A DNA stretch of 43,155 nucleotides from Isoptericola halalbus (GTDB taxonomy: Bacteria > Actinomycetota > Actinomycetes > Actinomycetales > Cellulomonadaceae). Under the pieces are notes generated by a model. It saw only the letters and a list, made by a program, of their open reading frames with translations. It was not told where the DNA came from and did no database searches. The translations under genes and the position numbers were made by a program. This document shows positions 25,462 through 43,155 of the stretch, in pieces. The stretch is taken from assembly GCA_009663185.1 (NCBI GenBank), contig VJZX01000021.1, positions 1,846 through 45,000 of the forward strand, in the 5' to 3' direction. Numbering within the stretch: position 1 is the first letter of the stretch; the number at the start of each line of letters is the position of its first letter.

Positions 25462-25890
25462 ATGGCCACCCGCACCGCACGCACCGCTTGGAACGGCACT
25501 TTGGACGAGGGCTCGGGCCAGGTCGAGCTGACCAGCTCGGGCACCGGAACCTTCGACGTCTCGTGGCCGCGCCGCATCGGCGAGGTCGAGGGTGTCACGA
25601 GCCCCGAGGAGCTCATCGCCGCGGCCCACTCGTCATGCTTCTCGATGGCGTTCTCGGCGGAGCTGGGCAAGGCCGGCGGCACGCCCGAGCAGGTCGAGGT
25701 CACGGCCGACGTCACCTTCGTCCCCGGGAAGGGGATCACGACGAGCGCGCTGAGCGTCCGCGGTTACGCCAGCGGCGTCGACGAGGCCGGGTTCCGCGCC
25801 GCGGCCGAGGCCGCCAAGACCGGCTGCCCGGTGTCGCAGGCGCTCGCCTCGGTCCCGGAGATCACGCTCGACGTCACGTACGAGGGCTGA
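25462..25890 (+). CDS. OsmC-family peroxiredoxin
   Basis: A 142-residue OsmC/Ohr-like protein that reduces organic peroxides. The two reactive cysteines are Cys59 in AAAHSSCFSMAFS and Cys116 in KTGCPVSQAL, with the usual EGVTSPEELI lead-in. The ATG has AAGGAG 8 bases upstream, and the message therefore has a leader, unlike many neighbours. The TGA stop overlaps the first unit of the GAGGTAG repeat array that separates it from the convergent epimerase-like gene. Confidence 0.93.
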   Translation: MATRTARTAWNGTLDEGSGQVELTSSGTGTFDVSWPRRIGEVEGVTSPEELIAAAHSSCFSMAFSAELGKAGGTPEQVEVTADVTFVPGKGITTSALSVRGYASGVDEAGFRAAAEAAKTGCPVSQALASVPEITLDVTYEG

Positions 25891-25975
25891 GGTAGCGCAT
25901 TCTCCGGCGAGGTAGCGCGTCTCAGGGCGAGGTAGCGCGTTCGCGCTACCGCGCACTGAGACGCGCTACCTCGCG
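25889..25975. repeat. GAGGTAG repeat array, site 1 (3 direct + 2 inverted units)
   Basis: Direct units start at 25889, 25909 and 25929, an exact 20-base period, each GAGGTAGCGC plus a spacer. Inverted units follow, one ending at 25973 and a second, degenerate one at about 25941-25952. Arms 25909-25925 and 25957-25973 (GAGGTAGCGCGTCTCAG and its complement) pair perfectly, with a nested GGTAGCGCG hairpin inside. It lies between two convergent genes. The OsmC stop overlaps the first unit, and the opposite gene's TAG is the TAG of an inverted unit. Confidence 0.85.
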
Positions 25976-27102: not shown

Positions 27103-27172
27103 ATCGGGCGAACGCGCCCTCGCGCGCCGGTGTGCGACCTGGGACGTTCCCGCACCAGCCGGTCGTGGGTGC

Positions 27173-27178
27173 AAGAAT
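27173..27178 (+). promoter_or_regulatory. -10-like AAGAAT, possible leaderless start of oxidoreductase
   Basis: AAGAAT ends 7 bases before the GTG at 27186. The hexamer is imperfect, but the spacing matches the pattern in this window and supports this GTG over the one at 27132. Confidence 0.3.
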
Positions 27179-27185
27179 CGGGCCC

Positions 27186-30100
27186 GTGCCTGCCCCCACG
27201 ACGACCCAGACGCACGATCGGACCGACGCGGACCTCACCGCGGCCCGTCGTGAGGCTGAACGGGCGGCGGCCGAGGCGCGGGCGGCGGTCGCGACCGCCC
27301 TGCGCACGGTGGTCACGGGCGACGTCGACACGAGCGCGCGCCGGCGCGCCGAGTACTCGACCGACGCGTCCAACTACCGCGTCGTGCCCGACGTCGTCGT
27401 GTTCCCGCGCAGCGTCGACGAGGTCGTGCGTGCGCTCGACGTCCTGCGCGAGCTCAAGGTCCCGGTCACGGCGCGCGGTGCCGGGACGTCGGTCGCCGGC
27501 AACTCCGTGGGGACCGGCGTCGTGCTCGACTTCTCCCAGCACCTCGGCGCGGTCCGCGAGATCGACCCCGACGCCGGGGTCGCCGTCGTCGAGCCGGGCA
27601 CGATCATGTCGACGCTGCAGAAGGCGGCGGCCCCGCACCGCCTGCGGTTCGGGCCCGACCCCTCCACGCAGAACCGCGCCACGCTCGGCGGGATGATCGG
27701 CAACAACGCGTGCGGCCCGCACGCCGTGGCGTACGGGCGGACGGCGGACAACGTCGTCGAGCTCGACGTCGTCGACGGGCGCGGGCGGCGGTTCACGGCC
27801 GGCGCAGGCGACCCGACGTTCGCGGCCGTGCCGGGCCTGGCCGAGCTCGTGCGCGACAACCTCGCGCTCATCCGCACCGAGTTCGGCCGGTTCGGCCGCC
27901 AGGTGTCCGGGTACTCGCTCGAGCACCTGCTGCCGGAGAACGGGTCGGACCTGGCCAAGGCGCTCGTCGGCACCGAGGGCACGCTCGTGACGGTCCTGGG
28001 AGCGACGCTGCGCCTCGTGCCCACCCCGAGCGCCCCGACGCTCGTCGTGCTCGGGTACACCGACATGCCGTCGGCCGCCGACGACGTGCCGGCGCTCCTT
28101 GCGCACGACCCGCTCGCGGTCGAGGGCCTCGACGCACGGCTCGTCGACGTCGTGCGCCGGGCCAACGGCGACGCGGCGGTGCCCCCGCTCCCCGAAGGTG
28201 CGGGCTGGCTCATGATCGAGGTCGGCGGGACGACCCAGGAGCAGGCGCTCGAACGGGCCGAGCAGATCGTCGCGGCGTCGTCCGCCATCTCGTCGGAGAT
28301 CCTGCCCGCCGGGCCCGCGGCCACCGCGATGTGGCAGATCCGGGCCGACGGCGCGGGCCTGGCCGGGCGCACCCCGGCCGGCGAGCAGGCCTGGCCGGGC
28401 TGGGAGGACTCCGCTGTCCCGCCCGAGCGGCTCGGCGACTACCTGCGCGACCTCGAGGCGCTCATGAAGCGCTACGGCGTCGACGGGCTCCCGTACGGGC
28501 ACTTCGGCGACGGCTGCGTGCACCTGCGGATCGATCTCCCGCTCGAGTCGTCCGGCTCCGTGCTGCGCACGTTCATGCTCGAGGCCGCGGAGCTCGTCGC
28601 GAAGTACGGCGGGTCACTGTCGGGCGAGCACGGCGACGGCCGCGCGCGCTCCGAGCTGCTGCCGCTCATGTACTCGCCCGAGGCGATCGCGCTCCTGGAG
28701 AGGTTCAAGGCGCTGTTCGACCCCGACGACGTGCTCAACCCGGGCGTGGTCGTCCGGCCACACGCCGTCGACGACGACCTGCGACGCCCGGGCGCACGAT
28801 CGGTGCCCTCGCGCTCCGGCGTGGGCGCTCGCGGCCTCGCCGGCCCGACGCCGCTGCGCGGCATCGCGAAGAAGGCTGGGTACGCGGGGTTCAGCTTCGC
28901 GCACGACCACCACGACCTCACGACGGCGGTGCACCGGTGCGTGGGCGTCGGCAAGTGCCGCGCCGACACGTCGGGGGCGGGCGGGTTCATGTGCCCGAGC
29001 TACCGCGCGACGAAGGACGAGAAGGACGTGACGCGCGGGCGTGCCCGGGTGCTGCAGGAGGCGGTCAACGGCACGCTCGTGGGCGGGCTCTCGGCGCCCG
29101 AGGTGCGCGAGTCGCTCGACCTGTGCCTGAGCTGCAAGGCGTGCTCGTCCGACTGCCCGGCCGGCGTCGACATGGCCCAGTACAAGTCCGAGGTCCTGTA
29201 CCGCACGTACAAGGGCAGGCTGCGGCCCGTCGACCACTACGCGCTCGGGTGGCTGCCGCGCTGGGCGCGCCTGGCCGGCACCATGCCGCGGTTGCTCAAC
29301 CGCGTGCTGCGCGTGCGCCCGATCGCCCGGGCCGTGCTGTGGGCCGGCGGCATGGACACGCGCCGGGAGGTGCCCGAGTTCGCCGAGATCCCGTTCCGCA
29401 CCTGGTGGCGGCGCGGGCACGCGACGCACGGGGTGCCCGGGCTCGCCGTCGGTCAGACGCCGGGCAGGCCGCGGCCCGCGCACATGCGGCCCAAGGTCGT
29501 GCTGTGGACCGACTCGTTCAGCGACGCGCTGTCACCGTCCGTGCCCCAGGCGGCCGTCGAGGTGCTCACGGCCGCGGGGTACGACGTCGTCGTGCCGGAC
29601 CAGCAGGCGTGCTGCGGCCTGACCTGGATCTCGACCGGGCAGCTCGACGGCGCGCGCCGGCGGCTGTCGTCGCTGCTGTCGGTGCTCGGGCCGTACGCCG
29701 TGAACGGGATCCCGATCCTCGGGCTCGAACCGTCGTGCACCGCCGTGCTGCGCTCCGACCTGCTCGACCTGTTCCCCGACGACCCGCGCGCGCACGCCGT
29801 CGCGGGGGCGACCCGGACCCTCGCCGAGCTGCTGACCTCGCCGGAGACGGCTCCGAGGCCCGAGACCGGCTGGACGATGCCCGACCTGTCCGACCTCACC
29901 GCCGTCGTGCAGCCCCACTGCCACCAGCACTCGGTCATGGGCTTCGCCGCCGACGAGGAGCTGATGCGCGGCGCGGGCGCGAGGATCAAGGTGCTGGCCG
30001 GCTGCTGCGGGCTCGCGGGCAACTTCGGGATGCAGAAGGGGCACTACGACGTGTCGGTCGCGGTGGCCGAGAACGCGCTGCTGCCGGCGCTACGTGCGCA

Positions 30101-30239
30101 AGGCGAGGGGGAGGCGTTCGTCGCCGACGGGTTCTCGTGCCGGACGCAGGCGCTGCAGCTGGAGGGTGTCGAGGGCAAGGCGCTCGTCGAGGTCATCGCC
30201 GAGCGGCTGCCCCGGCCGCCGCGTCGTCGCCCGAGGTAG
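27186..30239 (+). CDS. FAD- and Fe-S-containing oxidoreductase (D-lactate dehydrogenase-like fusion)
   Basis: A 1017-residue fusion. An FAD-binding PCMH domain (about 65-250) has VTARGAGTSVAGNSVGTGVV and GGMIGNNACGPHA. A FAD-oxidase C-terminal domain follows to about 530, with YGHFGDGCVHLRID and SGEHGDGRARSELLP. A ferredoxin-like domain has Cys clusters HRCVGVGKCRAD and LCLSCKACSSDCPAGVD. Two CCG domains end the protein (DQQACCGLTW, LAGCCGLAGNFG). This matches the GlcD-plus-GlpC/LldE architecture of actinobacterial D-lactate or D-2-hydroxyacid dehydrogenases feeding electrons to the chain. Its last codons are CCG AGG TAG, the stop lying in a repeat unit. Confidence 0.9.
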   Translation: MPAPTTTQTHDRTDADLTAARREAERAAAEARAAVATALRTVVTGDVDTSARRRAEYSTDASNYRVVPDVVVFPRSVDEVVRALDVLRELKVPVTARGAGTSVAGNSVGTGVVLDFSQHLGAVREIDPDAGVAVVEPGTIMSTLQKAAAPHRLRFGPDPSTQNRATLGGMIGNNACGPHAVAYGRTADNVVELDVVDGRGRRFTAGAGDPTFAAVPGLAELVRDNLALIRTEFGRFGRQVSGYSLEHLLPENGSDLAKALVGTEGTLVTVLGATLRLVPTPSAPTLVVLGYTDMPSAADDVPALLAHDPLAVEGLDARLVDVVRRANGDAAVPPLPEGAGWLMIEVGGTTQEQALERAEQIVAASSAISSEILPAGPAATAMWQIRADGAGLAGRTPAGEQAWPGWEDSAVPPERLGDYLRDLEALMKRYGVDGLPYGHFGDGCVHLRIDLPLESSGSVLRTFMLEAAELVAKYGGSLSGEHGDGRARSELLPLMYSPEAIALLERFKALFDPDDVLNPGVVVRPHAVDDDLRRPGARSVPSRSGVGARGLAGPTPLRGIAKKAGYAGFSFAHDHHDLTTAVHRCVGVGKCRADTSGAGGFMCPSYRATKDEKDVTRGRARVLQEAVNGTLVGGLSAPEVRESLDLCLSCKACSSDCPAGVDMAQYKSEVLYRTYKGRLRPVDHYALGWLPRWARLAGTMPRLLNRVLRVRPIARAVLWAGGMDTRREVPEFAEIPFRTWWRRGHATHGVPGLAVGQTPGRPRPAHMRPKVVLWTDSFSDALSPSVPQAAVEVLTAAGYDVVVPDQQACCGLTWISTGQLDGARRRLSSLLSVLGPYAVNGIPILGLEPSCTAVLRSDLLDLFPDDPRAHAVAGATRTLAELLTSPETAPRPETGWTMPDLSDLTAVVQPHCHQHSVMGFAADEELMRGAGARIKVLAGCCGLAGNFGMQKGHYDVSVAVAENALLPALRAQGEGEAFVADGFSCRTQALQLEGVEGKALVEVIAERLPRPPRRRPR

Positions 30240-30423
30240 CGCGCCTTCCGCCGAGGTAGAACGTTTCTCGCCGAGGTAGAACGCTTTTCGGCCGAGGTAG
30301 AAGGTTCTGCCGTCGAGGTAGAACGTCCTCCCTCTACCTCGCCGACGAGCCCTTCTACCTCGACGGGGAGGAGTTCTACCTCGCCGAACTCACCCTCTAC
30401 TTCGACGACCGCCTCTCTACTTC
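30233..30423. repeat. GAGGTAG repeat array, site 2 (5 direct + 5 inverted units)
   Basis: Direct units start at 30233, 30253, 30273, 30294 and 30315 (periods 20, 20, 21, 21). Inverted units end at 30340, 30361, 30382, 30403 and 30423 (periods 21, 21, 21, 20). Most units read GAGGTAGAACG or similar, with spacers like TTTCTCGCC; the two outermost inverted units are GAAGTAGA. The central pair, GAGGTAGA and TCTACCTC, is an 8-bp stem with a 10-base loop. It separates two convergent genes whose stops both lie in terminal units. No gene fits within it. Confidence 0.92.
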
Positions 30424-30653
30424 GCCCGCTCGACGCCCAGCCCTCGGCGAGCGAAGCGCCTCTTGGTCCGCGGGCCGTTCTTGCCGGTGGCGAGCAGCAC
30501 CGCCGCCACGATCGCCAGCAGGTTCACGGCGCCCGTCGCCACGGCGAAGGTTCGGGCACACAACGCAGTCGCGAGCGACCGTCGGGTGTCCCGTCGCGTG
30601 GGCGTCCAGATGACCTCCACCCAGGGGTCGTCCCCGCCTCCGTAGCTCGGCAT
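30417..30653 (-). CDS. Small membrane protein, 78 residues
   Basis: A small protein with a Gly/Asp/Trp N-terminus (GGGDDPWVEVIWTP), one clear membrane helix in AVNLLAIVAAVLLATG and a basic C-terminus ending ERAK. No family recognised. The ATG has GGAGGA seven bases upstream, supporting real coding. The reading frame ends GCG AAG TAG, using the TAG of the outermost inverted repeat unit. Convergent with the oxidoreductase. Confidence 0.65.
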   Translation of the reverse strand: MPSYGGGDDPWVEVIWTPTRRDTRRSLATALCARTFAVATGAVNLLAIVAAVLLATGKNGPRTKRRFARRGLGVERAK

Positions 30654-30715
30654 GCGCGAATCCTCCCATCAGGCGGACGGGCCCTGCTGGACGCCTCGGG
30701 CAACGAGCGGGGCTC

Positions 30716-30721
30716 TAGGCT
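30716..30721 (+). promoter_or_regulatory. -10 hexamer TAGGCT, leaderless start of nucleotidyltransferase
   Basis: TAGGCT ends 7 bases before the ATG at 30729, favouring that ATG over the GTG at 30723. Confidence 0.45.
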
Positions 30722-30728
30722 CGTGGCC

Positions 30729-31484
30729 ATGTTCAGCCCGGAGACCAGACGTGCCCTTCGCGAGAGGCTGGTCGAGCGAGCGCGTCACGACCCGGGCGTG
30801 GCAGGGGCCGCGTTCGTCGGGTCCGCCGCAACCGGTCGCGAGGACTCCTGGTCCGACATCGATCTTGCGCTCCAGGTCTCGCGGGGACACGATCCCGCAC
30901 AGATCGCTGCGGACTGGACTACCTGGCTGCGTCGTGAGGCAGAGGTGGCGGATACGCTCGACGTCGTCGGCGCAGGGACCCTCTTTCGTGTCTTCCTCCT
31001 GGCCGACTCTCTCCAGATCGACCTCTCGTTCTGGCCGTTCGACGCGTTCAGGGCCACTCAGGACGGATTCACGGTGCTCTTCGGGTCACCGAACGAGCCC
31101 ACCACATCTCCGCCGCTCGACGCGGAACACCACGTCGGTATGGGATGGCTCTACGCGCTGCACGCTCGCTCCGCTCTGGCGCGCGACAAGCTCTGGCAGA
31201 CCGCGATGATGCTCGACGGAGTGCGCGACCAGATCGTCATGCTCGCGTGCGCGCGGTACGGGCTGGATCCTCACCACGGTCGCGACGTCGACTCTCTGCC
31301 GTCGTGGGAGCTCACCGCCCTGGCCGCCGCTCGAGCCACCTCTCTCGACCCGGCCGAGCTCGAGCGGTCGAAGGCCGCGATGGTCACGCTTCTCCTTGCG
31401 GAGGTCGAACGCCACGACGCGACACTCGCGCAACGACTTGCGCTGCCCCTGAGCATCATCAGGGCCGTGAAGGCCGAGGGGTAG
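30729..31484 (+). CDS. Nucleotidyltransferase-domain protein
   Basis: A 251-residue protein with an N-terminal polymerase-beta-like nucleotidyltransferase fold: GSAATGREDSWSDIDLAL (31-48) carries the GS motif and the metal-binding Asp43 and Asp45. The third acid is probably Asp in QIDLSFWPF. The C-terminal helical region (about 130-250) resembles that of aminoglycoside or streptomycin adenylyltransferase-like proteins, but the pocket cannot be assigned, so substrate is unknown. Convergent with the FAD monooxygenase, with 45 bases between. Confidence 0.8.
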   Translation: MFSPETRRALRERLVERARHDPGVAGAAFVGSAATGREDSWSDIDLALQVSRGHDPAQIAADWTTWLRREAEVADTLDVVGAGTLFRVFLLADSLQIDLSFWPFDAFRATQDGFTVLFGSPNEPTTSPPLDAEHHVGMGWLYALHARSALARDKLWQTAMMLDGVRDQIVMLACARYGLDPHHGRDVDSLPSWELTALAAARATSLDPAELERSKAAMVTLLLAEVERHDATLAQRLALPLSIIRAVKAEG

Positions 31485-41881: not shown

Positions 41882-42496
41882 ATGGAGTTCCAGGACGTCG
41901 TCCGCCGGCGCCGCATGGTCCGCCGCTTCACCGACGAGCCGGTGCCGGCCGAGATCGTGGACCGCCTGCTGCGCAACGCCGTCCGCGCCCCGAACGCGGG
42001 TTTCACGCAGGGCTGGTCGTTTCTCGCGCTCACCGAGCCGCAGGATCGCGAGCGCTTCTGGACCGCCACGACGCCGGCCGGCTCCGGGCGCGAGCTGTCG
42101 ACCTGGCTCGCGGGCATGCGCACCGCGCCGGTGCTCGTCGTCGTGCTGTGCTCCAAGGACGCCTACCTGGACCGCTACGCCCGGCCGGACAAGGGCTGGA
42201 CGGACCGGGACGAGGCGCGCTGGCCCGTGCCGTACTGGCACGTCGACGCCGGCATGGCGTCGCTGCTCATGCTGCAGACCGCGCTCGACGAAGGGCTCGG
42301 TGCGTGCTTCTTCGGCATCGGGGCCGGCGAGGTGCCGAGGTTCCGCGAGGCGTTCGGCGTCCCGGACGAGTGGGCTCCGACCGGGGTGGTCGCCGTCGGG
42401 CACCCCGCCGACGGCGGCGCGGCTGGCTCGCCGTCGCGGCGCCGCCGCAAGCCCCTGGAGGAGGTCGTGCACCGGGGAAGGTGGACGCCGAGATAG
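41882..42496 (+). CDS. Nitroreductase-family FMN protein
   Basis: A 204-residue nitroreductase: MEFQDVVRRRRMVRRFTDEP holds the FMN-phosphate-binding Arg cluster, followed by LRNAVRAPNAGFTQGW. ACFFGIGAGEVPRFREAFGVP and VVAVGHP belong to the second half. These dimeric flavoenzymes reduce nitro groups, quinones or, in F420-type relatives, other acceptors; the substrate is not clear. The ATG at 41882 is preferred over 41873 because GGGAGGA lies eight bases upstream. It ends GCC GAG ATA G in register as CCG AGA TAG, a stop supplied by the repeat unit. Confidence 0.9.
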   Translation: MEFQDVVRRRRMVRRFTDEPVPAEIVDRLLRNAVRAPNAGFTQGWSFLALTEPQDRERFWTATTPAGSGRELSTWLAGMRTAPVLVVVLCSKDAYLDRYARPDKGWTDRDEARWPVPYWHVDAGMASLLMLQTALDEGLGACFFGIGAGEVPRFREAFGVPDEWAPTGVVAVGHPADGGAAGSPSRRRRKPLEEVVHRGRWTPR

Positions 42497-42565
42497 CGAT
42501 CCGTCGTCGAGATAGCGACGGACGCTCGGCGATCGGTGCCGATCGCGACGACGCATCGCTACCTC
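42490..42565. repeat. GAGRTAG repeat array, site 3 (2 direct + 1-2 inverted units)
   Basis: Direct units GAGATAGCGA start at 42490 and 42509 (19-base period). An inverted unit, GAGGTAGCGATGCGTCGTC on the minus strand, ends at 42565; a further degenerate inverted unit precedes it. The units match those of sites 1 and 2 in the first seven bases but have their own spacer sequence, shared within the site. It lies between convergent genes, and both flanking stops are its TAG. Confidence 0.8.
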
Positions 42566-43155
42566 GGCGCAGCGTGCACCGCGTCGGCGAGGCGGGCCAC
42601 GGCCTCGGGCAGCCGGGCGTCCGCGAGGTTGCCGTATCCCAGCACGAGCGTCGTCGAGCGTGCCGCCGGCCGGACCTGATAGCGCCGCAGGTCGACGACG
42701 CCGACGCCGCGGGCCGCCGCCTCGCGCACGACGTCGGCAGCGTCCGGAGGCGGTGAGCCGTCGATGCCGGAGGGAAGCTCGAGCAGAGCATGCAACCCCG
42801 CGGCCATCCCGCGCAGCCGCGCACCCGGCAGCGCGGCGGCCAGGGCAGCCTCGACGGCGTCGTGCCGGCTGCGGTACCGGACGCGCGCGGCGCGCAGGTG
42901 CCGGTCGTACGCACCGCCGTCGACGAACCGGGCGAAGGTCAGCTGGTCGACGACGGACGGCCCCGGCCGCGTCCCGTCCCCGGAGGCCAGCGCCGCGCGC
43001 CAGAGCGGGGGCACCACCATCCACCCGACGCCGAACGCCGGCGCGAGCGTCTTGCTCACGCTGCCGAGGAGCAGCACGCGGTCCGGAGCCAGCTGCTGCA
43101 GCGCCGCGACCGGTCGGCGGTCGTAGCGGAACTCGGCGTCGTAGTCGTCCTCGAT
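42559..43155 (-). CDS. MocR-like PLP-dependent aminotransferase/regulator, 3' part
   Basis: Partial, open at the window edge; 198 residues of the C-terminal aminotransferase-fold domain. EDDYDAEFRYDRRP at the start is the PLP-phosphate strand, followed by the Schiff-base Lys in LLGSVSKTLAPAFGVGWM. MocR regulators fuse a GntR-type helix-turn-helix to this fold; the N-terminal half is not visible, so a plain aminotransferase cannot be excluded. It ends GCG CCG AGG TAG, with the stop provided by the repeat array. Convergent with the nitroreductase. Confidence 0.85.
   Translation of the reverse strand: MEDDYDAEFRYDRRPVAALQQLAPDRVLLLGSVSKTLAPAFGVGWMVVPPLWRAALASGDGTRPGPSVVDQLTFARFVDGGAYDRHLRAARVRYRSRHDAVEAALAAALPGARLRGMAAGLHALLELPSGIDGSPPPDAADVVREAAARGVGVVDLRRYQVRPAARSTTLVLGYGNLADARLPEAVARLADAVHAAPR

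Follow-up and report, generated by a model that had tools for sequence, protein, structure and literature searches.

The array at positions 30233-30423 of the window (the whole 43,155-nucleotide stretch of Isoptericola halalbus DNA analysed here) belongs to a class of gene-end elements that is spread over the genome and specific to certain lineages. The units of these arrays are directional, they follow stop codons at a period of 19, 20 or 21 bp depending on the genus, and facing runs often meet at a central dyad. Judging from the sequences, we tentatively suggest that phased directional binding-site arrays around a hairpin may define transcript ends through a putative DNA-bound factor. We regard this as possible and short of probable.

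Structure of the array in the window

The preliminary description of the window had reported five direct and five inverted units with a GAGGTAG core, and this count was borne out at a spacing of 20-21 bp. The direct GAGGTAG cores start at 30233, 30253, 30273, 30294 and 30315 on the plus strand (spacing 20, 20, 21 and 21 bp). The inverted copies are less uniform than had been stated. Three are exact CTACCTC (30334, 30355 and 30376), but the two outermost are CTACTTC (GAAGTAG), one base off (30397 and 30417); the spacing in this arm is 21, 21, 21 and 20 bp. The window has 18 copies of the word CGAGGTAG; 100 dinucleotide shuffles gave 0.83 on average and never as many as 18. The features of the window are listed below, with gene calls from a rough purpose-made caller and the positions of the third array counted by hand.

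25889-25973, no strand: second array of the GAGGTAGCGC type, three direct and two inverted units (one degenerate)
27132-30239, plus strand: FAD-linked oxidase / Fe-S protein gene, whose TAG stop is the TAG of unit 1
30233-30321, plus strand: five direct units, core GAGGTAG, period 20-21 bp
30314-30341, no strand: dyad, the innermost facing pair CGAGGTAG...CTACCTCG
30334-30423, minus strand: five inverted units (three CTACCTC and two CTACTTC), period 20-21 bp
30417-30653, minus strand: possible small ORF of 78 aa, weak, whose end falls on the TAG of the final inverted unit
30729-31484, plus strand: next clear gene to the right of the array
42489-42566, no strand: third, decayed array with two CGAGATAG units (42489 and 42508) and one inverted CTACCTCG (42559)

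The array had been placed between convergent genes. The left gene is solid, but the minus-strand ORF on the right is weak: it has no Pfam family, it matches nothing but itself among the loci compared, and the next clear gene lies on the plus strand. The second array lies between an OsmC-like gene (ending at 25890) and an epimerase gene (ending at 25966) and has the GAGGTAGCGC sub-type in both arms. In the third array, the CGAGATAG unit at 42489 gives the stop of the gene ending at 42496, and the inverted CTACCTCG gives the stop of the minus-strand gene 42559-43155.

The proposed 191-base near-palindrome holds for the cores. Agreement of the variable spacers across arms (0.37) was the same as within an arm (0.37) and was 0.32 between different complexes of the I. 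halalbus genome, so spacer pairing contributes little. The stem of the dyad is lengthened by one spacer base only. The sense transcript of the array folded into one long hairpin with paired cores and internal loops between them (-99.9 kcal/mol, z -5.4), and the opposite strand reached -110.2 kcal/mol (z -5.8). A scan of 30150-30750 found this hairpin without a T-tract, no combination of stem and T-tract, and no sigma-70-like promoter; a canonical intrinsic terminator was therefore rejected. Among the Rfam covariance models run against the window, tRNA was the sole match, and the array fits no curated family.

Unit, period and spacers

The consensus of the I. halalbus sample was approximately CGNCGAGGTAGAAC with 5-6 variable bases; the eight core letters were the query, and their conservation in this consensus is inflated. 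The interval was exactly 20 bp in 91 of 106 cases. Other genomes kept the core, and most kept the C three bases on, but the two bases between them differed: TG in I. halotolerans, CG in two Isoptericola MAGs, TT in K. flava, AA or AG in Cellulosimicrobium cellulans and funkei, and GG in Sanguibacter hominis. AK164 has GCAAC at the post-core stretch. The modal periods in I. halotolerans, the Isoptericola MAGs, K. flava, Cellulosimicrobium, S. hominis and AK164 were 20, 20, 20, 21, 19 and 20 bp, respectively.

The middle unit between exact cores about 40 bp apart had 0-1 mismatch in 25/25 cases in the I. halalbus sample and in 16/16 cases in the stretch of G017, a member of the same genus; an offset control had 3-6 mismatches. 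Identity over the wider spacer stretch was 0.52 and 0.70, respectively. Spacers are nearly free in the I. halalbus genome but not in Cellulosimicrobium. Spacer identity was 0.42-0.48 within an arm and 0.38-0.41 between complexes in I. halotolerans, an Isoptericola MAG and K. flava; the corresponding values in three Cellulosimicrobium genomes were 0.66-0.76 and 0.64-0.69, and a GTGGTC-like spacer is common genome-wide there. The intact cores and diverged spacers of I. halalbus indicate that the cores, and probably the spacing too, are maintained. The wider-spacer values and the conserved Cellulosimicrobium spacers indicate that some arrays are young or have conserved spacers. Some arrays (in G013 and G017) are made of identical units. 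Three Cellulosimicrobium genomes have arrays at matching places of an orthologous stretch; the core is followed by AG in two of them and by TA or CA in C. arenosum.

The equal unit count on both sides holds for the window array (5+5). Elsewhere it is a weak tendency, and equal arms as a strict rule were dropped: among the loci listed, 16 of 56 two-armed complexes had equal arms against 12.1 by shuffling (p = 0.12), and the arms of 38 of 56 differed by at most one unit against 30.7 (p = 0.016).

Distribution in the genome, genus, family and order

The recurrence that the preliminary description had proposed to look for was found, since the unit is genome-wide and many relatives carry it. CGAGGTAGAAC occurred at 117 sites in the I. 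halalbus genome (59 forward, 58 reverse; control 0), and 109 phased CGAGGTAG pairs occurred at the array period (control 0). At least one pair was present in 62 of 221 genomes of the family; the control pattern was found in 5 genomes, with one pair each. Strong sets were limited to some genera of the family. At least 16 pairs were found in 11 of 18 genomes of the same genus, at least 9 in all 17 genomes of genus g8, and at least 14 in 6 of 7 genomes of g44.

A sample of 396 genomes of the order gave 61 matching genomes (control 4), comprising 12 of 35 inside the family and 49 of 361 outside it. A single pair was found in 43 of these 49; the others were G361 with 28 pairs, G248 and G427 with 6 each, G483 with 3, and G475 and G400 with 2 each. 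The 28 CGAGGTAG pairs of G361, a member of another family of the order, are spaced at 19 bp (e.g., C1:30455-30481). The ten pairs listed have nearly identical spacers at scattered loci, and the set looks younger. A one-gene tree, in which the array-rich label scores the GAGGTAG core only, showed array-rich and array-poor genomes interleaved with at least five changes, a result equalled by 180 of 500 label shuffles.

The named loci are at least 114 stretches, each selected by three perfect units, and therefore over-represent long homogeneous arrays. The stretches listed are mostly from Cellulosimicrobium, Isoptericola, Krasilnikoviella, Sanguibacter, Oerskovia and Cellulomonas; about ten are labelled otherwise, including Sphaerisporangium, cyanobacteria, Polyangiaceae and Bacteroidetes. 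Nine loci from other or doubtful taxa (L034, L039, L089, L101, L108, L117, L125, L130 and L132), some of which are probably coding repeats, contribute to the 170 complexes and 197 runs counted among the loci listed. These nine loci were left out of the middle-unit test, of the count of downstream hairpins and of a second complex count. L039 (1242-1375), from a record of 41% G+C that is labelled Bacteroidetes, contains eight units of 21 bp with CGAGGTAG; this period is a multiple of three, and the units are probably an unrelated coding-region repeat.

Placement and polarity at gene ends

Among the 114 named loci listed, 191 of 197 runs were intergenic. The 170 complexes of these loci were placed in convergent (71), codirectional (63) and divergent (5) regions, inside called genes (10) or at a locus edge (21). 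The background in I. halalbus, 186 intergenic regions of 60-400 bp, comprised 30 convergent, 108 codirectional and 48 divergent regions. Without the nine doubtful loci, the count was 71 convergent, 59 codirectional and 5 divergent of 161 listed complexes, and 9 of 17 complexes of the I. halalbus sample were convergent. The 63 codirectional complexes were sense-only in 29 cases, inward on both sides in 22, antisense-only in 10 and outward in 2 (28, 22, 7 and 2 of the 59 without the doubtful loci); orientation relative to the upstream gene is biased but not fixed. Exceptions are arrays in divergent regions and arrays that are antisense to the single gene end nearby.

The stop codon is often part of the array. 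The stop TAG was the TAG of the outermost unit, at exactly that offset, in 40 of 131 runs of the loci listed. In I. halalbus, 7 of the 11 genes that end at a sense array stop with TAG, compared with 63 of the 392 remaining gene ends; the values were 2 of 6 against 33 of 338 in G017, and 0 of 1 sense-array gene ends in the first G010 stretch. Because the arrays follow stop codons and are rare in divergent regions, a role at transcript ends is more plausible than one as promoters.

By orientation, the 170 listed complexes were two-armed inward (53), two-armed outward (4), of one orientation (109) or mixed (4). An inward partner was found within 1 kb for 33 of the 109 one-armed complexes and within 2.5 kb for 45, which leaves 76 of the 170 one-armed and without an inward partner within 1 kb; the one-armed complexes include 9 from doubtful loci and 13 near a locus end. 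Facing pairs in the 18 genus genomes were inward in 213 cases and outward in 9, a count that includes outer-to-inner pairs of one array, not all of which are independent. At L052 (160-940), eight direct and eight inverted units about 490 bp apart flank a whole gene, which is Nudix-like by eye.

Centre of the facing pairs and hairpins

In many arrays, the two innermost units, facing each other, form a hairpin that covaries. The stretch between them is often self-complementary when they lie close together. The centres were compared at the junctions listed for seven genomes (106 strings, 100 distinct), after removal of rows that contained an exact or near unit, of repeated strings and of one 42 bp row of G164. 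At six I. halalbus junctions (G000), inner positions 1-5 were all Watson-Crick pairs, against 0.4, 0.4 and 0.2 for swapped partners at positions 3-5. Own partners also paired above swapped partners at several inner positions in G016, G024 and G166, and these three genomes and G000 had more than one pair type per position. Pairing was no better than swapped at position 2 of G004 and position 5 of G164. Identical or near-identical centres recur at several loci of G004 and G164; many of these are copies of one another, so the two genomes carry lower weight.

The facing distance of the 100 distinct junctions listed was 19-22 bp in 29, 29-32 bp in 47 and 34-38 bp in none, and 17 of the 47 come from G164 and belong to one subfamily of centres or lie near it. 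This pattern is no more than suggestive of helical phasing across the dyad. G016 has a mode of 24 bp, and in G010/G013 the centre is often fused, so such phasing is not universal.

Where the facing units are far apart, the middle holds another long hairpin at three I. halotolerans loci and several Cellulosimicrobium loci, or it may instead hold an intrinsic-looking hairpin (by eye) or a gene (L052). At the I. halotolerans loci L040 (4183-4612), L063 (5695-6064) and L084 (6966-7333), the arrays flank a common inverted repeat of about 28 bp. Its middle segment is oppositely oriented in L040 and L063, by inversion of the segment or reversed placement of the element. Downstream hairpins were only slightly in excess at the 102 runs for which no facing unit lay within 94 nt: 14 reached -30 kcal/mol or lower (shuffles 3, upstream coding sequence 8) and 53 reached -25 kcal/mol or lower (shuffles 46, upstream coding sequence 31). 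The idea that arrays replace stem-loops at convergent junctions was rejected, as array junctions had no clear shortfall of stem-loops compared with the others, in small numbers.

Different core in sister species

G010 and G013 of the same genus had no GAGGTAG pairs. CGCTGASTCG pairs numbered 310 in G010 and 229 in G013, and none of the remaining 16 genomes of the genus had more than one. Since GCTGAGTCG matches the reversed control pattern as well, that control also scored, with 47 pairs in G010 and 1 in G013. When the genus members without GAGGTAG arrays were searched de novo, arrays of other words at a similar period turned up in G010 and, in smaller number, in G009. In G003, the tandem detector gave four matches, none convincing, against one in shuffles. 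GCCGAACATG pairs were found in G009 (4) and G014 (3).

The 23 runs of the G010 stretches were mainly convergent (16, with 4 codirectional and 3 divergent). Facing CGCTGASTCG pairs (15 in G010, 21 in G013) are palindromes, often fused without a loop, and the two-armed arrays in 0.6 Mb of G010 were three inward and one outward. At one orthologous convergent junction, G017 has eight exact direct and six inverted GAGGTAG units and G010 has three exact GCTGASTCG units. A second common junction has arrays in both, with the cores (as oriented here) pointing opposite ways. Among syntenic arrays, 2 of 3 G017 array junctions had a G010 array and 2 of 11 G010 arrays had a G017 array, with 8 of 19 G010 and 2 of 5 G017 arrays unplaced. 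In view of the 2 of 11 and the unplaced arrays, a core switch in place was not upheld, and the sharing may be chance co-use of permissive gene ends. As read from the sequences, related species have a similar layout built on a different unit, which is a hint that gene ends may be marked or enforced by a means not recognised so far.

Junction downstream of the oxidase gene in relatives

The junction of the window has a GAGGTAG array in 4 of 18 species, all of one clade, which indicates that the elements come and go. In these four species, the oxidase gene reads on to the TAG inside the first unit. In 13 of the 14 relatives without an array, it stops at TGA, and G012 has another TAG. Two of these relatives have other palindromes at the junction, a GCCGAACATG palindrome in G014 (L180) and a different one in G004 (L185), both seen by eye past the end of the oxidase gene. 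Such elements may have landed at this junction repeatedly.

Proposed function and alternative explanations

The core, polarity and period are kept while the spacers drift, which gives the arrays the look of serial protein sites on DNA. Among the functions that the preliminary description had offered, a protein-binding array or bidirectional end element agrees with where the arrays lie, which way they point, their conserved cores and their period. The missing stem with T-tract speaks against a canonical intrinsic terminator. In the proposed mechanism, directional sites (approximately CGNCGAGGTAGNNC in I. halalbus) would follow the stop codon every 20 bp towards the central dyad. A mirror run would often serve the other side, so that each converging transcript would meet the same series. 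A putative sequence-specific DNA-binding protein would fill the sites in phase along the helix, and the bound array would act as a directional roadblock that stops or stalls RNA polymerase leaving the gene. The central facing pair could form an RNA hairpin that aids release or protects the new 3′ end, and a covarying centre would add an RNA or cruciform component. We infer the trans-acting protein, its co-evolution with the core and the effect on transcription.

The arrays may instead be a REP/BIME-like dispersed non-coding element without host function. Lineages would amplify their own inverted-repeat family into permissive gene ends, and the arms would grow outward through local tandem duplication. 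We consider this explanation unlikely on balance, though close behind the binding-site reading because different families occupy the same sites (GAGGTAG in four species, GCCGAACATG in G014 and another palindrome in G004 at the window junction), some arrays have identical units (G013, G017), and the array state changed at least five times in the one-gene tree, as it does in 180 of 500 shuffles. The same or nearly the same centres at several loci of G004 and G164 also fit it. However, a search for the REP-associated Y1 (HUH) transposase (PF01797), the only such enzyme covered, found it in 0 of 18 genus genomes and in 5 of 14 control genomes, so REP/RAYT membership was rejected. Drift alone would not keep the cores and period of I. 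halalbus while the spacers diverged, and the three Cellulosimicrobium genomes keep arrays at the same places with changed post-core bases.

A second alternative is an RNA hairpin that terminates transcription or stabilises the 3′ end, whose arms pair in the transcript and whose several units provide several registers. The folding energies of the window array, the covarying central stems of several genomes and the inward partners within 1 kb of 33 of the 109 listed one-armed complexes agree with this. A common genome-wide core is not needed for pairing, however, the spacers agree across arms hardly above background, 30150-30750 lacks a T-tract, and the runs without a facing unit had only the small hairpin excess given above. 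A long hairpin is unlikely as the whole function because 109 of the 170 listed complexes have one orientation and 76 have no inward partner within 1 kb. These 76 also make an RNA-only function less likely, and we rate the hairpin as the sole explanation as doubtful. Still more improbable is an RNA-level 3′ UTR signal, with a protein, an sRNA or the 30S subunit on the tandem units setting mRNA stability or ribosome fate. GAGGU resembles a Shine-Dalgarno core, and the sense orientation after a stop codon is the commonest arrangement among the loci listed. Against this signal, C precedes GAGG where a Shine-Dalgarno sequence wants G (the C was in the query, and its score is inflated), and mirror arrays in codirectional contexts would be sense RNA of neither gene. 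The CGCTGASTCG core of G010/G013 is without GAGG or GGAG, and the Shine-Dalgarno reading was rejected because this second core does not support it.

The binding-site reading would have a wider form, a bacterial counterpart of the Sal-box/TTF-I system, in which a rapidly evolving putative DNA-binding protein would occupy phased arrays at dozens to hundreds of gene ends and define transcript 3′ ends, and the core set would change with its specificity (GAGGTAG against GCTGASTCG species). We hold this form to be rather unlikely. To our knowledge, transcription ending without U-tracts in high-G+C actinobacteria is poorly described, and no description of such arrays was recognised among the literature matches listed. 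The element is genome-wide, countable and lineage-variable, with a clear polarity and period, and is directly testable. If a protein reads it, close relatives with different cores are a natural experiment in regulator-site co-evolution; if it is a repeat only, it represents a REP-like class in a genus whose genomes gave no match to the REP transposase.

Comparison with known systems

REP, BIME and REPIN elements are species-specific dispersed repeats at intergenic 3′ ends, with inverted pairs and GTAG in the unit, and the arrays share all of these properties. They differ from REP/BIME/RAYT systems in their phased direct runs and in the absence of the Y1 transposase from the 18 genus genomes, and their unit (CGNCGAGGTAGNNC with 5-6 variable bases) is non-palindromic, where a single REP unit is an imperfect palindrome with a GTAG foot; only the facing pair is a palindrome. 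Downstream of rDNA, TTF-I acts on Sal-box arrays of short directional protein sites that stop the polymerase. The present arrays of short directional sites after a gene may work in a similar way with a putative protein, but they are bacterial, genome-wide at ordinary genes and arranged in mirror-image pairs. Iterons are direct repeats of about two helical turns, like the direct repeats here, which are scattered over the chromosome at gene ends and not confined to one origin. The DNA uptake sequences (USS/DUS) that pair as terminators are comparable in the genome-wide enrichment of one word and in its inverted pairs at gene ends. PMC5217627 gives the USS as a brief word found throughout the genome, with about 1300 sites in H. 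influenzae, that makes stem-loops at the ends of genes where two copies are inverted; by comparison, the arrays have hundreds of sites and direct tandem runs at 19-21 bp.

Other palindromes at convergent junctions

A second dispersed family was seen by eye at convergent junctions. It consists of long-armed, near-perfect palindromes that start with YTGTGRGC and end with GCYCACAAC. Copies are located at about 3510 in L007 and about 9802 in L009 (I. halalbus, C34), at about 16760 in L146 (G009) and at about 6770 in L222 (G017). By eye, the copies show compensatory differences.
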